Shown here one piece after another: positions 5,666-34,851 of a DNA stretch of 34,851 nucleotides. A program made the position numbers and the translations under genes. Origin of the DNA: a virus; the IMG/VR virus record IMGVR_UViG_3300029309_000139, positions 1-34,851 of that record; one strand, given 5' to 3'. Under the pieces are notes generated by a model. That model did no database searches and was not told the origin of the DNA. It saw only the letters and a list, made by a program, of their open reading frames with translations. Position 1 is the first letter of the stretch. Every line of letters begins with the position of its first letter.

Positions 5666-6076
5666 TCACCCCGCAGTAACCGCACCGCCTTGCCAGCTCA
5701 GCGTGATCGTCCCGCTTGTCTGCTGCTTGTCGTCTGCTTTGTCTCTGATCCCGAGCGGCTGCATCTGCCTGATGTGCTTATCCTTGTGGTCAGCCTCGAG
5801 CCTTCTGCGCTGCACCTCAGCCATAGCCAGCTTCGGATCTGTCGGCAGCTCAGCCTCGACCAGGTCAATGATCTGGTCACGCATGACCTCACACTGCAGA
5901 GCCCTGGCCCTACGATAAGCGCTGTAGGCATCCTCATCGTCCTGGACATAGCGCAGCATGGTCCGCCAGCTCGGCAGATGTTCGCTGTTGTTGCAGATCC
6001 TGGTCAGGCTTTCGCCTTCCGCAATGCGGTCACAGATCTCCTGCAGCTGCTGCTTTGTAACCTTACGCTTTGCCAT
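5666..6076 (-). CDS. terS: Terminase small subunit (DNA recognition)
   Basis: A 136-residue protein that binds the packaging site and loads the large subunit. The N-terminal half is a helix-turn-helix of the Sf6-type small terminase family: QLQEICDRIAEGESLTRICN followed by LPSWRTMLRYVQDDEDAYSA and YRRARALQCEVMRDQIIDL. The second half is a charged helix (AEVQRRRLEADHKDKHIRQM) thought to build the ring, and a short beta-like tail. Length is typical. Start ATG 6076 has GGAG five bases upstream; this ribosome site directly abuts the T-tract of a terminator (6115-6085), so terS is the first gene after a transcriptional block. It is the first gene of the presumed late transcript. Confidence 0.88.
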   Translation of the reverse strand: MAKRKVTKQQLQEICDRIAEGESLTRICNNSEHLPSWRTMLRYVQDDEDAYSAYRRARALQCEVMRDQIIDLVEAELPTDPKLAMAEVQRRRLEADHKDKHIRQMQPLGIRDKADDKQQTSGTITLSWQGGAVTAG

Positions 6077-6084
6077 GCTTCTCC

Positions 6085-6115
6085 AAAGAAAAGGACCAGG
6101 TTCGAGACCTGGCCC
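6085..6115 (-). terminator. Rho-independent terminator ahead of terS
   Basis: On the minus strand a hairpin GGGCCAGGT / ACCTGGTCC (one G-U pair, loop CTCGA) is followed directly by TTTTCTTT. The wobble pair exists only in the minus-strand RNA, which fixes the direction. It stands between the putative late promoter (6214-6186) and the terS ribosome site, so it would stop late transcription unless overridden. Confidence 0.82.
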
Positions 6116-6185
6116 AGTTAAGAGGTAAGGAAGTCACTGTCCTGCAAGCCCGAACTGCAGGGAGCAGAACTCGAGCTTGCTGGAG

Positions 6186-6214
6186 ACTGTACGCTTTTCA
6201 CGACAATCGTGCAA
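6186..6214 (-). promoter_or_regulatory. Putative late promoter (PR'-like) with palindrome
   Basis: On the minus strand TTGCAC (6214-6209), a 17-bp spacer, and TACAGT (6191-6186) match a sigma-70 promoter (4 of 6 at each box by eye). Start would be near 6179, giving a leader of about 65 nt before the terminator at 6115-6085. A palindrome CACGA-CAA-TCGTG (6199-6211) overlaps the -35 box and spacer and may bind a regulator. The layout promoter, short leader, terminator, late genes is the lambda PR'-tR' arrangement. Confidence 0.55.
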
Positions 6215-6241: not shown

Positions 6242-6270
6242 TTGGCATATTATGCCACGATGCTTATATG
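6242..6270 (+). promoter_or_regulatory. Early plus-strand promoter with repressor operator
   Basis: TTGGCA (6242-6247), 17 bp, TATATG (6265-6270). The -35 box is inside the perfect 15-bp palindrome TGGCATATTATGCCA (6243-6257), one of five similar operators in the window. Drives the operon 6291-7645; the ribosome site AAAGGAGG follows at 6278-6285. Repression in the lysogen is inferred from the shared operator. Confidence 0.75.
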
Positions 6271-6290
6271 TATAGTGAAAGGAGGTGCCG

Positions 6291-6521
6291 ATGAAAAAGA
6301 CCAAGCGACCAACCGGCAAGACCTGGCAGACAGCCAAGCTGTTCAAGGTCTATCTGGGCATGAAGGCACCAGCTGGGGCTGCAGGGCTCAGGCTCATGTG
6401 GGCCATTGTTGGCCACAAGTGGGTCAGGTGCTGCACACCGATCACCAACGTCAAATTCAAGATGCGGCGCGCCATGTGGGACGAGCTCCCAGCTGGCGAC
6501 CGTGAACTCATCAGAGCTTAG
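6291..6521 (+). CDS. Small basic early protein, function unknown
   Basis: A 76-residue protein beginning MKKTKRPTGKTWQ and rich in Lys, Arg and Trp; it contains AAGLRLMWAIVGHKWVRCC, a short hydrophobic stretch with two cysteines, probably too short for a membrane segment. ATG 6291 is chosen over the in-frame GTG at 6285 because AGGAGG (6280-6285) then has a 5-base spacing. First gene of a five-gene early operon directly behind a repressor-controlled promoter, so it should be made early after infection or induction. Genes in such positions often counter host functions or defence, but nothing in the sequence shows which. I do not recognise the family. Confidence 0.75.
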   Translation: MKKTKRPTGKTWQTAKLFKVYLGMKAPAGAAGLRLMWAIVGHKWVRCCTPITNVKFKMRRAMWDELPAGDRELIRA

Positions 6522-6532
6522 GAGGACTGCGA

Positions 6533-6880
6533 ATGATTCAGTTTTACAACGAAGAGCTGGCGTATCAGACGGCCGGCAAGGTGACACAGAGCACCCTGGA
6601 CTTCGATCCAGCTGAGCACAAGACAGCAGAAAGTGCTGCAAAGGGCATGTACGAGGCCCTGGTCAAGGCCTGTAAGGCATACGGCCAGGACCCGGCTTGG
6701 GAAGTCCACATAAAGACGCCCGAGGAATACAAAGCCTGGGGCGGTGGTTGTGAGGCCTGGTATGTCAGCTGGGAGGCTGGGCCCTGGGAATGGGCAATCA
6801 GTGCGAGCTTCGAGGCCACTGGCCCTGGTTGGCACACTGAGCCTTACCACGGCTTTGATCTTGTTTTCTACGACGACTGA
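6533..6880 (+). CDS. Acidic early protein, function unknown
   Basis: A 115-residue acidic protein (MIQFYNEELAYQTAGKVTQS...), rich in Trp, Tyr, Glu and Gly in its second half (EAWYVSWEAGPWEWAISASF), where alternating hydrophobic residues suggest beta strands. No known motif is visible. Size, acidity and operon place are like phage proteins that mimic DNA or bind host enzymes, but this is only an analogy. The start has AGGAG with good spacing and lies 11 bases after the previous stop. The gene is in the repressor-controlled early plus operon. Confidence 0.75.
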   Translation: MIQFYNEELAYQTAGKVTQSTLDFDPAEHKTAESAAKGMYEALVKACKAYGQDPAWEVHIKTPEEYKAWGGGCEAWYVSWEAGPWEWAISASFEATGPGWHTEPYHGFDLVFYDD

Positions 6881-6891
6881 GGAGGACTGAC

Positions 6892-7170
6892 ATGACAGTG
6901 ATGACCAAAGAAGAACAACGCGCGCGGGACGCTCGGCTCTACCGCGACGAGCTCGAGTTTCAGCAGAGCCTGGGCGAGCTCAACGGGATCGAGGCATACG
7001 CCAAAGCCACAGATCAGCAGAAGGGCATCATCGCCTTTGGCATGACGCCGGTCGAGCTGTTCCCCGAGACATGCGAGTACGGGGGCGTGGCTGACCACCA
7101 TGCCTGGAAGAAGGGCTTTGCCCTGGGCCTGATGACTGCAGCCAAGAACGCTAAAGCGATGGTGGTCTGA
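6892..7170 (+). CDS. Early protein, function unknown
   Basis: A 92-residue, mostly helical protein (MTVMTKEEQRARDARLYRDE...) with a charged first half and a C-terminus HAWKKGFALGLMTAAKNAKA. Ribosome site GAGGAGG precedes the ATG; a second in-frame ATG (fourth codon) could also be used. The stop overlaps the next start (TGATG). It is the third gene of the early plus operon. No family recognised and no catalytic pattern seen; the WKKGFALGL segment resembles helices in phage ribosome-modulation-factor-like proteins only loosely. Confidence 0.72.
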   Translation: MTVMTKEEQRARDARLYRDELEFQQSLGELNGIEAYAKATDQQKGIIAFGMTPVELFPETCEYGGVADHHAWKKGFALGLMTAAKNAKAMVV

Positions 7171-7349
7171 TGGCGATTACCGTGTTTGACATCGACAGAG
7201 AGGTGGAGCGGCTCAAGCGCCGCCCACTGTGGGAGCTCAAGGCAATGGTCAAAGCCCTGAGCTTTCATCGCTGGTGCAATACCAGCGAGGAGGAGCTGCG
7301 GCTCGAAGCGGCCAAGCTAGTTATGAAACAGAAAAGGAAGCGCAAATGA
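7170..7349 (+). CDS. Small charged early protein, function unknown
   Basis: A 59-residue protein: MAITVFDIDREVERLKRRPL..., then a helix with CNTSEEELRLEAAKLVMKQK and a basic end (RKRK). The start ATG overlaps the previous stop by one base and its stop TGA overlaps the following ATG (ATGA), so it is surely translated by coupling although it is short. The heptad-like spacing of Leu and Val suggests a helical hairpin or dimer. Function unknown. Confidence 0.7.
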   Translation: MAITVFDIDREVERLKRRPLWELKAMVKALSFHRWCNTSEEELRLEAAKLVMKQKRKRK

Positions 7350-7645
7350 AAACAGAGACAGCCTTTGACATGATCCGCGACCTGGGCAAGGCGTTTCGAA
7401 CGGCTTGCATTGAGCGTGGATACGAGCCCCAGGGTGGCTGGGATGGCGACCTGATGAGCGGCCTTGCCGGCTTCGTCAAGCTCGAGCTCACAGACAAGGA
7501 CATCCCTGGCATCACCGAGGCGTACAGCATCGTCATGGAGAAAGCAGCAAAGCTCTGCTTCGAGACAGCTCAGCAAGCTGCAGCTGAGGACTTCATCGCT
7601 GACCAGGACACGGTGGACCAGGTCACAGCCGGTAATACAGCCTGA
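7346..7645 (+). CDS. Early protein, function unknown; 3' end overlaps the opposite operon
   Basis: A 99-residue acidic protein (MKTETAFDMIRDLGKAFRTA...), predicted helical, with the conserved-looking GYEPQGGWDGDLMSGLAGFV and an Ala/Glu-rich second half. The start overlaps the previous stop (ATGA), with GGAAG as ribosome site; longer upstream starts are not supported. Last gene of the early plus operon. Its final 23 bases overlap the 3' end of the minus-strand gene 7623-8012, and no terminator lies between them, so the two early transcripts must run into each other. No family recognised. Confidence 0.75.
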   Translation: MKTETAFDMIRDLGKAFRTACIERGYEPQGGWDGDLMSGLAGFVKLELTDKDIPGITEAYSIVMEKAAKLCFETAQQAAAEDFIADQDTVDQVTAGNTA

Positions 7646-8012
7646 CCAGCGCGTCCTTGTAACGCCGCTTTACGATCCTCGGGTCATTCAGCCCGAGGAT
7701 TTGTGCAATCCGAGACCACCTCGGGCCCCGCTGCCGGAAGGCAGCGCTCTGACATACAGCCCAGACCAGGCGCCGATCCTCGATATCCATGTAGCGTAGC
7801 GCCAGATCCAAAGCCATTTCCCAGCGATCAATCTGCTCCCCGGTAGGCTTGAGCCTGGGCACCTCCATCGCATTGTAGCCGTAGGCCATGCCGTCCCTGG
7901 GATAGTCAGGCCAGCCTGACATGCGCTGTCTGCGAAAGGCAGCCGGGAGCTTGCGCTCAGTCTCTGCAGCCTCGAGGAACAGCTCATTTAGCTCTGTCAT
8001 GCTTAGCCGCAT
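7623..8012 (-). CDS. DUF6362-like HTH protein, candidate late regulator
   Basis: A 129-residue protein resembling the DUF6362 family of alphaproteobacterial prophages, recognised by pattern only. The N-terminal half is helical with the RRQRMSGWPDYPRD segment; the C-terminal part reads VWAVCQSAAFRQRGPRWSRI, AQILGLNDPRIVKRRYKDAL, a plausible helix-turn-helix like sigma region 4 or phage late regulators. It is the last gene of the early minus operon, the place occupied by Q-type antiterminators in lambdoid phages, and it faces a promoter-terminator pair ahead of terS. A role in switching on late genes is therefore inferred. Start ATG 8012 (AGGAG, spacing 7) is preferred to ATG 8000; it overlaps the upstream gene by 29 bases. 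Confidence 0.75.
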   Translation of the reverse strand: MRLSMTELNELFLEAAETERKLPAAFRRQRMSGWPDYPRDGMAYGYNAMEVPRLKPTGEQIDRWEMALDLALRYMDIEDRRLVWAVCQSAAFRQRGPRWSRIAQILGLNDPRIVKRRYKDALVRLYYRL

Positions 8013-8292: not shown

Positions 8293-8329
8293 TGCGGCTG
8301 CGCCGATTTTATCGAGGCCGACATATCTG

Positions 8330-8554
8330 TCAAGCCCCATGACCAAATCCGAGGGCGAGCATGACACGGCGCCACCAGGGCTGTGGGGCAGGCTTTTGCT
8401 CCACATCGAAGCTGGTAGAGTGTTGCTGACCCCCCAGATAATTAGGCTCAGTTTTCTGCTTCGCCCTTTTCTTGCGAGCCTTCTTCTCTGCCCAATGCGC
8501 TTTCATTGCCCTGCTCTGCGCTTCGCGGCGAGCTTTTGTCCATTCTTTGGCCAT
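8330..8554 (-). CDS. Small Lys/Arg-rich protein, function unknown
   Basis: A 74-residue basic protein, MAKEWTKARREAQSRAMKAH..., whose first half is a strongly charged helix (AEKKARKKRAKQKTEP) and whose end has PWWRRVMLALGFGHGA, a possible short amphipathic or membrane-touching segment. AAGGAG stands seven bases before ATG 8554, a very good site. Its first third overlaps, in another frame, the end of the gene 8448-8699. Function unknown. Confidence 0.65.
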   Translation of the reverse strand: MAKEWTKARREAQSRAMKAHWAEKKARKKRAKQKTEPNYLGGQQHSTSFDVEQKPAPQPWWRRVMLALGFGHGA

Positions 8555-9842: not shown

Positions 9843-10029
9843 TCGGCATGACCTCGCCCCCCGTCACCTCGATGATCCTCGCCATGTAGGTTCGACCAGG
9901 TATCACCTGGCCGTCGCCGCCTGGGCGGATGCACCACCTGGTCACGTCCTTCGCGTGGCTTGCGCCGAGCTTTCGTGCCAGCTGGGCCTTCGACCAGCCC
10001 TTTTTTAATCGCCATTGCTCAAGTGTCAT
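9817..10029 (-). CDS. Cro-like helix-turn-helix regulator
   Basis: A 70-residue DNA-binding protein with an XRE-type helix-turn-helix at the N-terminus (LEQWRLKKGWSKAQLARKLG, then ASHAKDVTRWCI) and a short C-terminal part that could form a dimer strand. It is transcribed divergently from the larger repressor gene (10118), the cI/cro arrangement. Its promoter (TTGGCA, 17 bp, TTACAA at 10066-10038 on the minus strand) would start transcription at or within a few bases of the ATG, so the mRNA is probably leaderless. It is the first gene of the early minus operon. Role as Cro is inferred from context. Confidence 0.82.
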   Translation of the reverse strand: MTLEQWRLKKGWSKAQLARKLGASHAKDVTRWCIRPGGDGQVIPGRTYMARIIEVTGGEVMPNDFYMARD

Positions 10030-10037
10030 AGCGGTGT

Positions 10038-10107
10038 TTGTAACACAGCTTGACAGAATATGCCAAGCTGCTTATCTCAATGACAATGGGTTGGCAAACA
10101 ATGCCAG
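10038..10107. promoter_or_regulatory. Divergent repressor/cro control region with two operators
   Basis: Operator A is TTGACAGAATATGCCAA (10050-10066) and operator B is TTGGCAAACAATGCCAG (10091-10107, perfect TGGCA-AACAA-TGCCA core), centres 41 bp apart. Operator A supplies -35 boxes both ways: TTGACA on plus with TTATCT about 16 bp on (repressor), and TTGGCA on minus with TTACAA 17 bp on (cro-like). Operator B touches the AGGAG of the repressor gene (10106-10110), so it could shut off the repressor itself. Confidence 0.75.
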
Positions 10108-10117
10108 GAGAATTATT

Positions 10118-10813
10118 ATGACATCCATGCCAAATAACCTTGATGCAATGATTGCCCGGTCGGGCATGTCGAAAAGAGAAGTGGCGGCGCTGAAAGGCAT
10201 TACGCCAGAAACGCTGTCGCGCCAGGTCCACGGCAAGATACAGATGACGCTGCAGGACGCCGAGTATTACGGCAAGATCCTTGACTGCTCAGCTCAAGAT
10301 ATCCTTTTTGCTACGCGGCCAGTGCCAATCATTGGCTACTGTCACATCGTTTCGTGCGACCACGAAGACCCACATTGTCCGGCGCATGGGGCTCATGTCG
10401 AGCGCCGAATCTCAGCCGGTGAAACGATGGGCAAAGTCTATTTGCAAAGTTACATGCAGCAAGGCACCGGTGCTGTCCTATGGTCGAAAGCCGAGGGCTA
10501 TTCTGGCATATGGGATCACTGGCACAGTGCTGTAGAATTTATTGAGCTTGGTCCAGTTGAAAACGGTTTCGTGTCGAAAAACGCTATACAGCAAGGCTGC
10601 TATGCTTTGCTCGAAGATCCTATCGAAATGTACGGCAAGGAACAAAGGCTGGTCCACGGCACCCTTTTCCCCGAGCCAGGTGGTCTGTACACCGTCCACA
10701 GCGCCGAAACCCAAATATCCGTTAAAGGACAAAAGTTGGCCTGGGCCTCGGCGGTGCTGGACATATCGTTCCAGCCCAAATTAAGAGGGATGCAGATAAT
10801 ACTAAACAAGTGA
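10118..10813 (+). CDS. Prophage repressor (CI-like, HTH N-terminal domain)
   Basis: A 231-residue regulator. Residues 1-65 form an XRE-like helix-turn-helix: NNLDAMIARSGMSKREVAAL, KGITPETLSRQVHGKIQMTL. The rest starts at PVPIIGYCHIVSCDHEDPHC and has a beta-rich end, GTLFPEPGGLYTVHS, that loosely recalls the S24/LexA C-terminal fold, but I cannot place a catalytic Ser-Lys pair. It may therefore be induced other than by RecA-driven self-cleavage. ATG 10118 follows AGGAG. The gene is divergent from a cro-like gene, flanked by operators on both sides (10050, 10091, 10815), and probably represses all early operons and the integrase promoter. Confidence 0.82.
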   Translation: MTSMPNNLDAMIARSGMSKREVAALKGITPETLSRQVHGKIQMTLQDAEYYGKILDCSAQDILFATRPVPIIGYCHIVSCDHEDPHCPAHGAHVERRISAGETMGKVYLQSYMQQGTGAVLWSKAEGYSGIWDHWHSAVEFIELGPVENGFVSKNAIQQGCYALLEDPIEMYGKEQRLVHGTLFPEPGGLYTVHSAETQISVKGQKLAWASAVLDISFQPKLRGMQIILNK

Positions 10814-13820: not shown

Positions 13821-14972
13821 TTATTCAAAGATCGAGCTCACTGCGTCCAGCATGTGGGCATCTTTTTCATCATCCTCGATCCAATGGCCGTATGTCTGCT
13901 CGGTCGTCTGGACACTCTCATGGCCCATGAGGTTGGTGATCGTCCACCAATCATTCTTGAAAGCGCGGAGCAGCTGGCTGGCGTAATAGTGCCGCAAATC
14001 GTGCCACCGGATCTTTTCGACGCCGGCCTGGGCACAGGCCTTGTCCATGTTTTCCTGGAACCGGCTGTCGCTGATGATGGCGCCCGTCCTGGTCGGGAAG
14101 ACCAGCTCGGTCTTGGCCGGCCGGCCTCGCTTGATGTACAGCTCGCGCAGCTGGATCGCCAAGCCCCTGGGCAGCGTGACCTTTCGGTAGCCCTTGGGCG
14201 ACTTCGGTGGACCGACCTCAGCCCGGTGCTTGACCGCCTTGTTGACATCGACCTTGCAGCCATCCAGGTCCAGGTCGGCCCAGGTCAGTGCGCGCTGCTC
14301 GCCCTGCCGCAGCCCGGTCGAGCTGGCGAAGGTAGCCATGAGCGCCCACCAGGGATCCATCACCCCGATGATTGACTTGACCACCGCCGGCTGGACCCGT
14401 GCGACCTTGCCGTCTGTCGCCTTGCCCTCGATCTCGCCGATGGCAACCGCGCCCTGCCAGGGATCAGTCTTCCGGCAGCCGATCAGAATCGCGTAACGGT
14501 TCATCGCGCGGAGGCTGGTGAGGATGTTCTTGACTGTCTTCTTCGTGTGACCAACAGCCATCTGATCGAGCAGCTGCAGCTGGACATGCTTCATCTCCAG
14601 GTCGCGGACCCTGAGCTGGGCGGTGCTCTTGTTGTTCACCTTGAGCGTCAGGAAGAATTTCGCGTGACGATGTTTTTCAGACCAGCTCGATTTGCTGATC
14701 TTGCCCCTCTCGTACTCGCTTTGCAGATGCTTGACCCATCCGCCGACAGGCTTGTCCTTCTCGAAGCCGAGCAGCTCGTAGAACGTCCAATCCCAGGCGC
14801 CATCTGTGTTGAGCTGCAGCTCATCCTCGAGTCGGTCGATGTAGGCATAGGCCTCCTGCTCGGTGGCGAAATACTTTTGTTCGCCATCCTCGAGGACGGT
14901 CCTTGTATCGACGCACCAGGATGCCCAGCCCTTCCGAGCTCGCGACTTGTGTTGTGTGACATCTAGCTTCAT
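13821..14972 (-). CDS. int: Tyrosine-type integrase
   Basis: A 383-residue site-specific recombinase that inserts the phage at a tRNA 3' end and, with an excisionase, removes it. The catalytic domain shows STGLRQGEQ (R222), a Lys in PPKSPKGYR (about 257-260), HDLRHYYASQLL (H324, R327), LMGHESVQTTEQTY with H351 and nucleophile Y361. N-terminal residues 1-60 include the arm-binding type segment and the middle holds the SAM-like core-binding helices (KKTVKNILTSLRAMNRYAIL). ATG 14972 follows AAGGAGG and overlaps the previous stop; a longer frame to 15080 would run through another gene and is rejected. Last gene of a five-gene operon with a repressor-controlled promoter; attP is upstream. Confidence 0.95.
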   Translation of the reverse strand: MKLDVTQHKSRARKGWASWCVDTRTVLEDGEQKYFATEQEAYAYIDRLEDELQLNTDGAWDWTFYELLGFEKDKPVGGWVKHLQSEYERGKISKSSWSEKHRHAKFFLTLKVNNKSTAQLRVRDLEMKHVQLQLLDQMAVGHTKKTVKNILTSLRAMNRYAILIGCRKTDPWQGAVAIGEIEGKATDGKVARVQPAVVKSIIGVMDPWWALMATFASSTGLRQGEQRALTWADLDLDGCKVDVNKAVKHRAEVGPPKSPKGYRKVTLPRGLAIQLRELYIKRGRPAKTELVFPTRTGAIISDSRFQENMDKACAQAGVEKIRWHDLRHYYASQLLRAFKNDWWTITNLMGHESVQTTEQTYGHWIEDDEKDAHMLDAVSSIFE

Positions 14973-15148
14973 CAGGCAGCCTCCTTCTCTTCGACCGGCC
15001 AGTAGATGATTGTCTTGCCGATCACCTTGGTTTTGTATTTGGGCTCGTGGAGGAAGAACGTCATCCAGTAATCCTCGCACTCCTCGAATGTCTCGAACTC
15101 AGCGACCTTGTAGGTCTTGCCGTTCTTCCAGCCCTCAATCAGTTTCAT
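14972..15148 (-). CDS. Small protein upstream of int, function unknown
   Basis: A 58-residue protein, MKLIEGWKNGKTYKVAEFET, then FEECEDYWMTFFLHEPKYKT and KVIGKTIIYWPVEEKEAA. Rich in aromatic and charged residues with alternating beta-like strands. It overlaps the preceding gene (ATGA) and ends at TGATG with the integrase start, so it is almost surely co-translated with int. Too small for most searches. It might assist excision or control directionality, but nothing in the sequence proves this. Confidence 0.72.
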   Translation of the reverse strand: MKLIEGWKNGKTYKVAEFETFEECEDYWMTFFLHEPKYKTKVIGKTIIYWPVEEKEAA

Positions 15149-15980: not shown

Positions 15981-16244
15981 TTGTGATGCGCTTGTGATGC
16001 AGGCACAAAAAAAAGTCTCCAAAAGCTAATGCTTTCAGAGACTTACTGGTCTTAGAAATGGCGGGAGTGACGGGACTCGAACCCGTCGAAACCATGCTCT
16101 GACATGCTCTGAAACGTAGCAAAACAATCGCTTACGTCCAAGGTAAATGTCATCGAGACATGCTAGAGGTTATGTCAGAGCACCTTGCTTGTGATGGGTT
16201 TGTGATGCGGGTCGATGGGTCTGCATCACAAGGATCTGTGATGC
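15981..16244. other. attP: Phage attachment region (attP) with integrase arm sites
   Basis: The core region contains the 3' end of a tRNA gene (16095-16059, minus). On one side are TTGTGATGC at 15981-15989 and 15992-16000; on the other TTGTGATGG at 16189-16197, TTGTGATGC at 16200-16208, an inverted copy at 16223-16231 and CTGTGATGC at 16236-16244. Paired copies are 11 bp apart (one helical turn). This is the layout of arm-type sites on both attP arms. The last two copies form GCATCACA-AGGATC-TGTGATGC, a hairpin just after the late-operon stop. Also present: direct repeat of GACATGCTCTGA-like words at 16094-16111. This accounts for the 378-bp gene-free stretch 15868-16245. Confidence 0.82.
16059..16095 (-). 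other. tRNA 3'-end fragment (att core)
   Basis: On the minus strand the sequence has a complete T-arm ACGGG-TTCGAGT-CCCGT, then CACTCCC, G and CCA: the last 34 or so bases of a tRNA including encoded CCA. No matching 5' acceptor strand (GGGAGTG) or anticodon arm lies upstream, so this is not a full tRNA gene but the part of the host tRNA carried by the phage, which restores the gene after integration. The amino acid cannot be told from this part. Confidence 0.85.
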
Positions 16245-33189: not shown

Positions 33190-33779
33190 CAGAGCCTCGA
33201 ATTGATAAAGGTATCAGCCGAGAAGTTTTGCGAGATGCTGGTGTCCGAGGTGTTGATCTGGTTGTCCTCGGTCGCATCCACGAAGCGAGCCTCCTTGAGT
33301 TTCTCCTGGTAGAACACATTCATATTCGCGCCCAGGGTGGCGCTGCCGACCAGGGGGTAAGCCAGGTCAGCTGCCAGGGCGGCTGCTATGGTCTCGATCA
33401 GCAGCGTGTCATAAGCATTGGGATCTGTGATCCGGCCGACATACTTGAGCTTGATCGTGCTCTCGTCTGTCAGGATCTTGCGGCCCTCAACGCGGAAGAT
33501 GATGTCGGGATCATCGAGGCTGAGGACGCGCAGACAAAATGGATCTGTCGGCAATGAAAACTGTTTTGCGAACTCGAAAGCCGGCGTGGCTGTATCTGGC
33601 GCCAGGGTAGTGCGCTGGATCAGGCTGTTCCAGGGGTGAGCTCGAAACACATAGTCGCGGATGAAGTCATAACGCTGGTTGCAGATCCGCGCAGCCTTGC
33701 TGTCTTCAGTCAGGCTGATGATGTTCGACGCACCGATCTGGTTCAGCGCTGAGTTACAGATATCGACGACTGATGCCAT
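33189..33779 (-). CDS. Tail tubular protein A (gp11-like)
   Basis: A 196-residue adaptor that joins portal and nozzle. MASVVDICNSALNQIGASNI, DSKAARICNQRYDFIRDYVF and RAHPWNSLIQRTTLAP are the N-terminal signature of the gp11 family. The middle holds FSLPTDPFCLRVLSLDD and the end a helix (AAALAADLAYPLVGSATLGA). First gene after a terminator (33822-33792), so tail genes may be made at lower level than head genes. Confidence 0.92.
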   Translation of the reverse strand: MASVVDICNSALNQIGASNIISLTEDSKAARICNQRYDFIRDYVFRAHPWNSLIQRTTLAPDTATPAFEFAKQFSLPTDPFCLRVLSLDDPDIIFRVEGRKILTDESTIKLKYVGRITDPNAYDTLLIETIAAALAADLAYPLVGSATLGANMNVFYQEKLKEARFVDATEDNQINTSDTSISQNFSADTFINSRL

Positions 33780-33791
33780 TCCAAGCCCCTA

Positions 33792-33822
33792 TGAAAGAAG
33801 GGGGCAGCCTGAGCTGCCCCCT
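33792..33822 (-). terminator. Rho-independent terminator between head and tail genes
   Basis: Minus strand: AGGGGGCAGC - TCAG - GCTGCCCCCT (9-10 bp, very GC-rich) followed by TCTTTCAT. It is in the 48-base gap between the decoration-like gene and tail tube A. Because the late operon has no obvious second promoter here, it is probably partial or bypassed by antitermination, favouring capsid over tail proteins. Confidence 0.8.
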
Positions 33823-33827
33823 CGTCG

Positions 33828-34292
33828 TTAGCTGATGACGTAGAGCATCGTCACGGCGATGGAGCCGGTGCCAGCGGCTCCGCCCATAGTGACCGTGACG
33901 GTCTTGCCATTCTCGTCAGCATCGACCTCCTCGCCATTCAGCAGCGCGAGCGTGGCAGCAATGTCCACGATCTGTGCTGATGTTGAGGCTGCTGCTGCCT
34001 TATAGGCTGCGGCAGATGCAGACACAGCCGTGCCGGCTGCGTTTGTGTGAGCCGCAAAACCCACAGACAGAGTTGTCGATGAACCCAACGCATCGTGAGC
34101 CAGCTGGCCCTGGAGGATGCGAGCGCCATCAGGCAGAGTGAACATTTCGATCACGTCGCCAGATGCCAGGCTCGAAGCCTCGTAGGTGCCGTGCGCCACG
34201 CGGACTTCACCGCCCAGCTCGTTGGCTTTCACGAAATCAGAAGGGTCGTCTTGAGTCAGCGTGGTTTGCTGAGTGCTATATACAGTAGCCAT
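33828..34292 (-). CDS. Capsid-associated (decoration-like) protein
   Basis: A 154-residue protein directly after the capsid gene. MATVYSTQQTTLTQDDPSDF, VKANELGGEVRVAHGTYEAS, SGDVIEMFTLPDGARILQGQ; the rest is Ala/Thr/Ser-rich beta sequence ending VTVTMGGAAGTGSIAVTMLY. The phrase GDVIxMFxLPxGARI is common in small head proteins after the coat gene in podoviruses. Probably on the outside of the head; no direct proof. Ends just before a strong terminator. Confidence 0.7.
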   Translation of the reverse strand: MATVYSTQQTTLTQDDPSDFVKANELGGEVRVAHGTYEASSLASGDVIEMFTLPDGARILQGQLAHDALGSSTTLSVGFAAHTNAAGTAVSASAAAYKAAAASTSAQIVDIAATLALLNGEEVDADENGKTVTVTMGGAAGTGSIAVTMLYVIS

Positions 34293-34306
34293 TTCTCATG
34301 CCCTCC

Positions 34307-34574
34307 CTATGCGCTCTCGTCACAATCGATTTGCACGACCTTAGCTTCTTCCATCCGGGTCGCACCGAAGGTGGCGCAGTAGTAGACCTGGGTGGAGTAG
34401 CTCTTGTCGGAGCGCTCATCGATGCGTGACATGACATCCTTACCGACAGCCAGCTTGATGCCGTCCTCGGCCCATGCGAAGCATGTGCGGATGTTGCCTG
34501 ATTTACCGAGGCGTGTGCTCATGTGGAACTGGAATCCCATGAACGTGTTGACCTCACCTTGTACAAGCGCCTTT
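34307..34574 (-). CDS. Major capsid protein, exon 2
   Basis: C-terminal part of the coat protein after the intron. The exon starts with AAAGGCGCTT; joined to the GT left by exon 1 it reads V-K-A-L-V-Q-G-E-V-N-T-F-M-G-F-Q, giving the conserved phrase DFNTVKALVQGEVNTFMGF. The rest (TRLGKSGNIRTCFAWAEDGI, KLAVGKDVMSRIDERSDKSY, STQVYYCATFGATRMEEAKV) is the usual coat-protein end in this group. Stop TAG at 34309-34307. An apparent ATG at 34582 is inside the intron and is not the real start. Confidence 0.9.
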
Positions 34575-34778
34575 CGTACCACTTCGGCTTTCGCCGCCAG
34601 CTTGCGCTGTTCGTGGTCTGGACTTTCTCTTGACCGTCGCCCTTGGCGTTACGGCCCTGCCCGTCAAGTCTCTACACCTTCCCATTTCTGGGCTTGGCTC
34701 GGGATCAGCATTTCAAAGCCTTCCCCGAATTTGAGCAGTTTTCATCTGACCGTTTCCGATCAGATAGGCAAAGTGTTT
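34575..34778 (-). ncRNA. Group I self-splicing intron in the major capsid gene
   Basis: A 204-nt intron with every helix of a small group I ribozyme. P1: exon GGU plus AAA (34781-34776) pairs with UUUGCC (34772-34767), with the U-G pair at the 5' splice site. P2: 9 bp closed by GAAA (34765-34744). P3: CUGCUC / GGGCAG (34738-34733, 34662-34657). P4: UCGGG / CCCGA (34728-34724, 34703-34699). P6a: CCCA-GAAA-UGGG. P7: GACUU / AAGUC (34670-34666, 34625-34621). P8: GCCGU...ACGGU. P9 with GCAA and GAAA loops. The last base is G (34575). P/Q elements ATTCGGGGAA and GATCCCGAGCCAAGCC match the conserved core. No endonuclease gene. Unspliced, translation stops six codons in; spliced, the capsid frame is exact. 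Closest type by eye is the small IC3-like class of bacterial tRNA introns. Confidence 0.94.
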
Positions 34779-34851
34779 ACCGTATTGAAATCGCTTGAAG
34801 TTACAGAGGTGGTGTTCAACAGCGCCTCGATTTGATCGGGCCCGACGGCGA
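34779..34851 (-). CDS. Major capsid protein, exon 1, 3' part (partial at window edge)
   Basis: Seventy-three bases encoding AVGPDQIEALLNTTSVTSSD then FNT and the first two bases of a Val codon. This joins to the part at 464-1 across the missing bases and to exon 2 after removal of the intron (phase 2 insertion, between codon positions 2 and 3). VGPDQIEALL and TSSDFNTVKALV are conserved in podovirus coat proteins; the intron sits in the latter, which fits the habit of introns to choose the most conserved sites. Confidence 0.9.

Follow-up and report, generated by a model that had tools for sequence, protein, structure and literature searches.

A conserved promoter, early -10-like hexamer and leader terminator ahead of terS suggest a Q-type late-gene switch in a temperate marine-type phage, with DUF6362 as its probable factor

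A temperate marine-type phage most likely silences its virion genes by terminating their transcript before the first gene is reached. A small protein of the DUF6362 family would switch them on by making RNA polymerase pass stop signals, in the manner of Q in phages lambda and 21. We put the probability of this reading, a Q-type late-gene switch with DUF6362 as the factor, at about 85%, on the basis of comparative sequence analysis and structure models. The DNA elements, their conservation and spacing, and their linkage to the DUF6362 gene were seen directly. The window, by which we mean the whole stretch of DNA analysed, is a virus record of 34,851 bases. Its TerL is 57% identical to HTVC010P-type pelagiphage terminases, and an integrase (13821-15080) together with a Cro/C1-type HTH protein (9929-10813) point to a temperate phage. 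The late region lies on the minus strand and runs leftwards from terS. The presumed capsid reading frame crosses the record ends (1-700 and 33650-34851) with a small frame break; the record is probably circular DNA opened at one point, a base or two having been lost, which gives a late operon of 25 kb. A group I intron (Rfam RF00028, 57.5 bits; 34595-34788, minus strand) lies within the apparent major capsid gene, at the record's right-hand end. The elements discussed below are, by coordinate:

5666-6076, minus strand: terS, with which the late operon opens; Sf6-type small terminase (PF20901, E 2.6e-21; phrog_1482)
6085-6115, minus strand: intrinsic terminator, tR'-like, 9-bp stem plus TTTTCTTT (fold and conservation)
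6145-6179, minus strand: 5' leader hairpin CAAGCTCGAG..GTTCGGGCTTG (leaders fold better than shuffles, z < -1, in 29 of 43)
6174-6179, minus strand: CAAGCT, a -10-like hexamer covering about +1 to +6 and a candidate for a sigma-dependent pause element (TAAGCT in phage 21; column conservation)
6186-6191, minus strand: -10 hexamer TACAGT (sequence)
6196-6207, minus strand: spacer element ATTGTCGTGAAA (group consensus AATGnnCnnAAA), candidate QBE analogue for a Q-like protein (TG invariant, 43/43)
6209-6214, minus strand: -35 hexamer TTGCAC of the late promoter (TTG conserved in the motif of 43/45 relatives)
7623-8012, minus strand: DUF6362 protein gene, 129 aa, proposed Q-like antiterminator (PF19889, E 1e-10)
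8306-8333, minus strand: promoter-like TTGACA-16-TAAAAT ahead of a two-gene unit ending in the DUF6362 gene (11/12 matches; consensus match only)
16013-16044, minus strand: hairpin with T8 resembling a strong terminator, where the late operon probably ends (consensus match only)
33792-33822, minus strand: terminator inside the late operon (z -2.88; follows the same gene in 25/28 relatives)

In the window, a 17-nt spacer separates the -35 and -10 hexamers of the late promoter, and the predicted transcription start at about 6179 is followed, after some 64 nt, by the terminator hairpin GGGCCAGGT-CTCGA-ACCTGGTCC (6115-6093; folding energy -16 kcal/mol, z -3.96), whose T-tract occupies 6092-6085. 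GGAG comes directly after the T-tract, and the terS ATG is at 6076. The promoter, leader and T-tract hairpin ahead of the terS ribosome site all lie where an earlier note on this DNA had first placed them. A simple sigma-70 scan did not return the promoter, which is therefore weak by consensus alone; its support is conservation. The likeness of CCAGGTTCGAGACCTGG to a T-arm, which might have made the terminator tRNA-like, is a coincidence: ARAGORN reported no tRNA, and the stem differs in close relatives.

Searches with TerS and the 7623-8012 protein yielded 133 loci carrying both genes, some of them overlapping, and promoters and terminators were counted in 45 non-redundant regions upstream of terS. 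An unsupervised motif search of these regions returned one motif, present in 43 of the 45, which comprises TTG, AATGnnCnnAAA inside the spacer, and TA....T. Column statistics revealed another conserved hexamer, TAnnnT, placed 12 nt beyond the first base of the -10 and hence covering about +1 to +6. Its second-position A and sixth-position T occupy one exact column in 40/43 relatives and are shifted by one in the remaining three; the same pair reaches at most 11/43 at other offsets from 30 to 49, and 22/43 at the -10 itself, so that the downstream hexamer is the more constant of the two. After thinning to <70% identity it was still at the exact column in 15 of 16. The distance from the TG to this hexamer is 26 nt in the group, and two relatives have TAAGCT, as in phage 21. 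The window deviates from the group in its CAAGCT and in a spacer element that lacks the consensus C; ATTG is present.

A 44-column motif model built without the window, with the window's near relatives kept in training, scored 25.5 bits at 6215-6172 on the minus strand, the best site in the genome by 15 bits; the runners-up scored 10.0 bits, then -3.8 and below. The earlier note had seen no other clear promoter in the late operon, and this held: the sole second-best motif site (26744-26701) falls on the sequence where ribosomes would bind for the gene that follows. As a second late promoter this site was rejected, since in addition to that overlap it weakens in relatives.

A strict terminator test applied upstream of terS was positive in 34/45 relatives against 7.0 +/- 2.3 in shuffled sequences. 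Elsewhere the same test was positive in 4/40 cases ahead of terL, 2/38 ahead of DUF6362, 1/44 within terS and 8/45 on the reverse strand, so a terminator precedes terS more often than chance would allow. Once long loops were allowed the count rose to 41/45, with a clear terminator missing in four. Stem sequences vary from clade to clade while the terminator is kept, which is the pattern expected from selection for a terminator as such. The strong terminator that had been noted within the operon, at 33822-33792, also proved real and stands at the same place in the 25 relatives listed above. Its conservation fits processive read-through. In this group, then, late transcription meets two terminators or more, which it must either overcome or lose transcripts to.

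Termination might instead be controlled by the leader RNA, as a riboswitch, a put- or nut-like RNA or through attenuation by a partner RNA, independently of DUF6362. Most relatives do have a hairpin after the start (29/43 with z < -1), and a CTCCC element occurs in 20/43 leaders where 4.7 are expected. However, the region has no Rfam match, and RNAalifold found no consensus structure among 18 leaders. For a conserved element of the HK022 put or lambda nut kind, one that recruits or modifies polymerase from the nascent leader, the picture is mixed: these two negatives stand beside a hairpin in the individual sequences. A motif search of the leaders returned the terminator only. The leaders vary freely, whereas the promoter spacer, the pause hexamer and the DUF6362 gene are fixed, and we consider control by the leader RNA very improbable. 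Between leader hairpin and terminator, leaders such as those of L039, L070 and L073 carry a conserved stretch, (C)CTCCCTTAAC..CCTTAC, that resembles boxA or an anti-Shine-Dalgarno sequence.

One further proposal places control at the promoter itself. CACGACAATCGTG, which covers the -35 region at 6199-6211, is perfectly palindromic about its midpoint, and the earlier note had drawn attention to it. Were it a repressor operator, derepression alone could control the late genes. The palindrome is there, but it forms no part of the conserved promoter motif and is broken in the close relatives L002 and L004; for the latter reason it is not evidence of an operator, and we rejected the operator reading, which retains barely any credibility. 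A second palindrome, TGGCATATTATGCCA, occupies 6243-6257 in the divergent promoter region. Its place is taken in other clades by TGACG-N5-CGTCA or TGACC-N5-GGTCA, as if an operator and its regulator might change together among clades.

The protein encoded at 7623-8012 matches PF19889 (DUF6362) with 42.3 bits against a cut-off of 31, and also phrog_6836; both are families of unknown function. All 38 of the relatives' proteins match the DUF6362 profile. In every locus with both genes (133/133), the DUF6362 gene precedes terS and shares its strand. The gap ranges from 137 to 2,900 bases; the window is among the loci with a longer stretch between the two genes, and opposite-strand ORFs lie within it. 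These are short plus-strand ORFs at 6285-7645 that have no PHROG match. We found no annotated phage with a close DUF6362 protein, only distant ones, and a full-text literature search found no paper that names or describes the family.

The predicted structure begins with N-terminal helices, continues with a segment of low confidence and closes with a core of four helices that ends in an HTH. Some of the most conserved residues (W34, P35, Y44 and G45) fall in the low-confidence segment, which would fit a mobile ring segment such as the one that, with a sigma region 4-like core and an N-terminal helix, characterises the 21Q fold. With the window's protein model, Q21 was the top Foldseek match among 350,542 PDB chains, at a non-significant E value of 3.0. 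VIA-align likewise placed Q21 first among full-length matches (Z 7.3, 109 residues aligned), ahead of sigma region 4. A second model, of a relative 51% identical, again gave Q21 by VIA-align (Z 6.6, 118 aligned); Foldseek ranked Q21 fourth (E 3.4, not significant). Across the two models, sigma region 3-4 chains were second-best structurally. Z values of 6.6-7.3 are middling for a helical protein, and the two models are not fully independent because their alignments share most rows. Profile comparison showed no link to Q21 at the level of sequence: the window has no match to the Q21 family PF06530, and hhalign against the Q21/QuuD alignment gave a probability of 0.2%. Neither PF03589 (lambda Q) nor PF06323 (Q82) appeared in a Pfam scan of the 38 DUF6362 proteins at E values up to 1. 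DUF6362 appears, from sequence and structure models, to be a new Q-like family with no sequence relation found to these Q families. The suggestion that this gene is the best Q-like candidate is strengthened by its constant position and by Q21 as best full-length fold match in both models.

The sigma-like matches raise the prospect that DUF6362 is a conventional activator, whose sigma-region-4-like HTH recruits polymerase while the hairpin merely ends upstream transcription. The second-best structural matches are of this kind, and the conserved element sits in the spacer beside the -35. Yet the promoter lies upstream of the terminator, and recruitment alone would produce nothing beyond the short RNA. 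No part in recruiting polymerase is known for the conserved -10-like hexamer at +1 to +6, and the second terminator inside the operon is conserved. We regard simple activation as improbable.

Among DUF6362 loci on bacterial contigs that were outside motif training, we found the site in 3 of 4. The best sites of L147, L148 and L149 scored 33.4, 21.4 and 23.3 bits with the relatives' model, on the same strand. In L148 and L149, whose DUF6362 proteins are 39% identical, the site is directly downstream of the DUF6362 gene and is followed by a hairpin with a T-rich tail, as read by eye; in L147 (56% identical) it comes just before terS, beyond an insert. The model found no such promoter at L150, which encodes a DUF6362-like protein of 28% identity, and no late-promoter site for the DUF6362 homologue of cyanophage Ssp-JY39. 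These two failures bound the claim. The Ssp-JY39 gene (L235, 3989-4675) is upstream of the terminase genes, with about 930 bases without annotated genes between.

Both DUF6362 and the motif are absent from three lytic pelagiphages whose TerL is related. Their 'DNA binding protein' genes (L316, 163-555; L317, 750-1073; L318, 155-448) adjoin a methylase gene and are separated from terL by an opposite-strand block. As an occupant of DUF6362's place, the pelagiphage 'DNA binding protein' was set aside: it matches Sf6-type small terminase in Greip and, only weakly, in Lederberg. That of Skadi-4 gave no Sf6-type small terminase match.

Q-type antitermination by DUF6362 is the most economical account of these observations, and we infer its pause, DNA-binding, loading and read-through steps from sequence and by analogy. 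Host sigma-70 RNA polymerase would start at about 6179 with no phage factor required and would pause early because sigma region 2 engages DNA a second time, at the -10-like hexamer that covers about +1 to +6. Without the factor, the RNA would end at 6115-6085, at a length of about 90-95 nt. Expression of the early minus-strand genes would supply the DUF6362 protein, which is proposed to bind the spacer element between the -35 and -10, load onto the paused polymerase and stay bound. The modified polymerase would then read through the tR'-like terminator and the internal one, allowing transcription of the ~25-kb packaging, head and tail operon. The likeness to lambda PR'-tR' that the earlier note had proposed gains from the conserved spacer element, the -10-like hexamer at fixed spacing, the terminator, and the occurrence of the site beside distant DUF6362 genes. 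Against this reading count the lack of a detectable sequence relation to Q21, the non-significant Foldseek E values, the middling Z, the window's own departures from the group consensus in pause hexamer and spacer element, the four relatives with no clear terminator, and the failure to find the promoter beside the most distant DUF6362-like proteins. A more far-reaching reading has DUF6362 as founder of a separate Q family that reached 21Q geometry by an independent or extremely divergent route, and that works with a structured leader (5' hairpin plus CTCCC), lying between pause site and terminator, as a second, RNA-borne part of the antitermination complex. We think this unlikely; if true, it would combine protein- and RNA-based loading in one promoter.

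A Q-type switch operated by DUF6362 would assign a proposed function to a domain of unknown function, and likely enlarge by one family the short list of Q-type antiterminators. It would also explain how the timing of virion genes could be set through the host polymerase in a large group of uncultured, mostly marine phages. With many natural promoters that differ in binding element and pause hexamer but keep one geometry, these phages are suited to testing how a factor loads on paused polymerase.

According to studies of 21Q, lambda Q and AlpA, such proteins require a binding element between the -35 and -10 and a -10-like initial-transcribed sequence that causes a sigma-dependent pause (PMC6606751, PMC9371919, PMC7969949). 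Both cis-elements are conserved in this group, with DUF6362 as the candidate binder. By geometry, the closest counterpart among experimentally known systems is PR' of phage 21. In annotated phage 21 (OL657228.1), the TG of QBEu lies 26 nt before TAAGCT (SDPE), the same distance as separates the TG from CAAGCT in the window. Phage 21 (21Q, PF06530) also shares the Q gene just upstream, the 17-nt spacer, the binding element within it and a terminator shortly after the start, and its Q protein is the best fold match of DUF6362, with no detectable sequence homology. It differs in having two direct-repeat subsites where we see one conserved block, and in its first late genes, which are tRNA and lysis genes rather than terS. 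In the window the terminator comes ~64 nt after the start and is preceded by a leader hairpin of its own; neither this hairpin nor the group's CTCCC element occurs in this form in phage 21. When the relatives' motif model was run on phage 21, PR' ranked third of 3422 positions, which indicates kinship in geometry rather than in base sequence.

The remaining systems were compared by description. The alpB promoter of Pseudomonas aeruginosa, served by AlpA, shares the spacer binding element, a -10-like CACGAT at -1 to +5 and a downstream terminator (PMC7969949, PMC9371919), but AlpA controls a host-borne cell-death operon rather than phage late genes. AlpA has a 21Q-like fold without sequence homology to 21Q (PMC9371919), which sets a precedent for the combination suggested by the DUF6362 models. 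GafZ of the Caulobacter gene transfer agent shares an element between -10 and -35, a sigma-like HTH and passage of terminators in a virion cluster; it differs in working with GafY and IHF, in its palindromic element and in having no reported similarity to known antiterminators (PMC11150451). Lambda Q/PR'/tR' (PF03589) shares the overall logic of a late promoter, a leader terminator and a Q gene immediately upstream, but lambda Q has only an HTH in common with the fold of 21Q, and a -35-like element is a further requirement in lambda (PMC6606751). Taken together, the logic and geometry of the proposed switch are known ones, and what would be new, judging from sequences and models, is the protein family and the large phage group that uses it.
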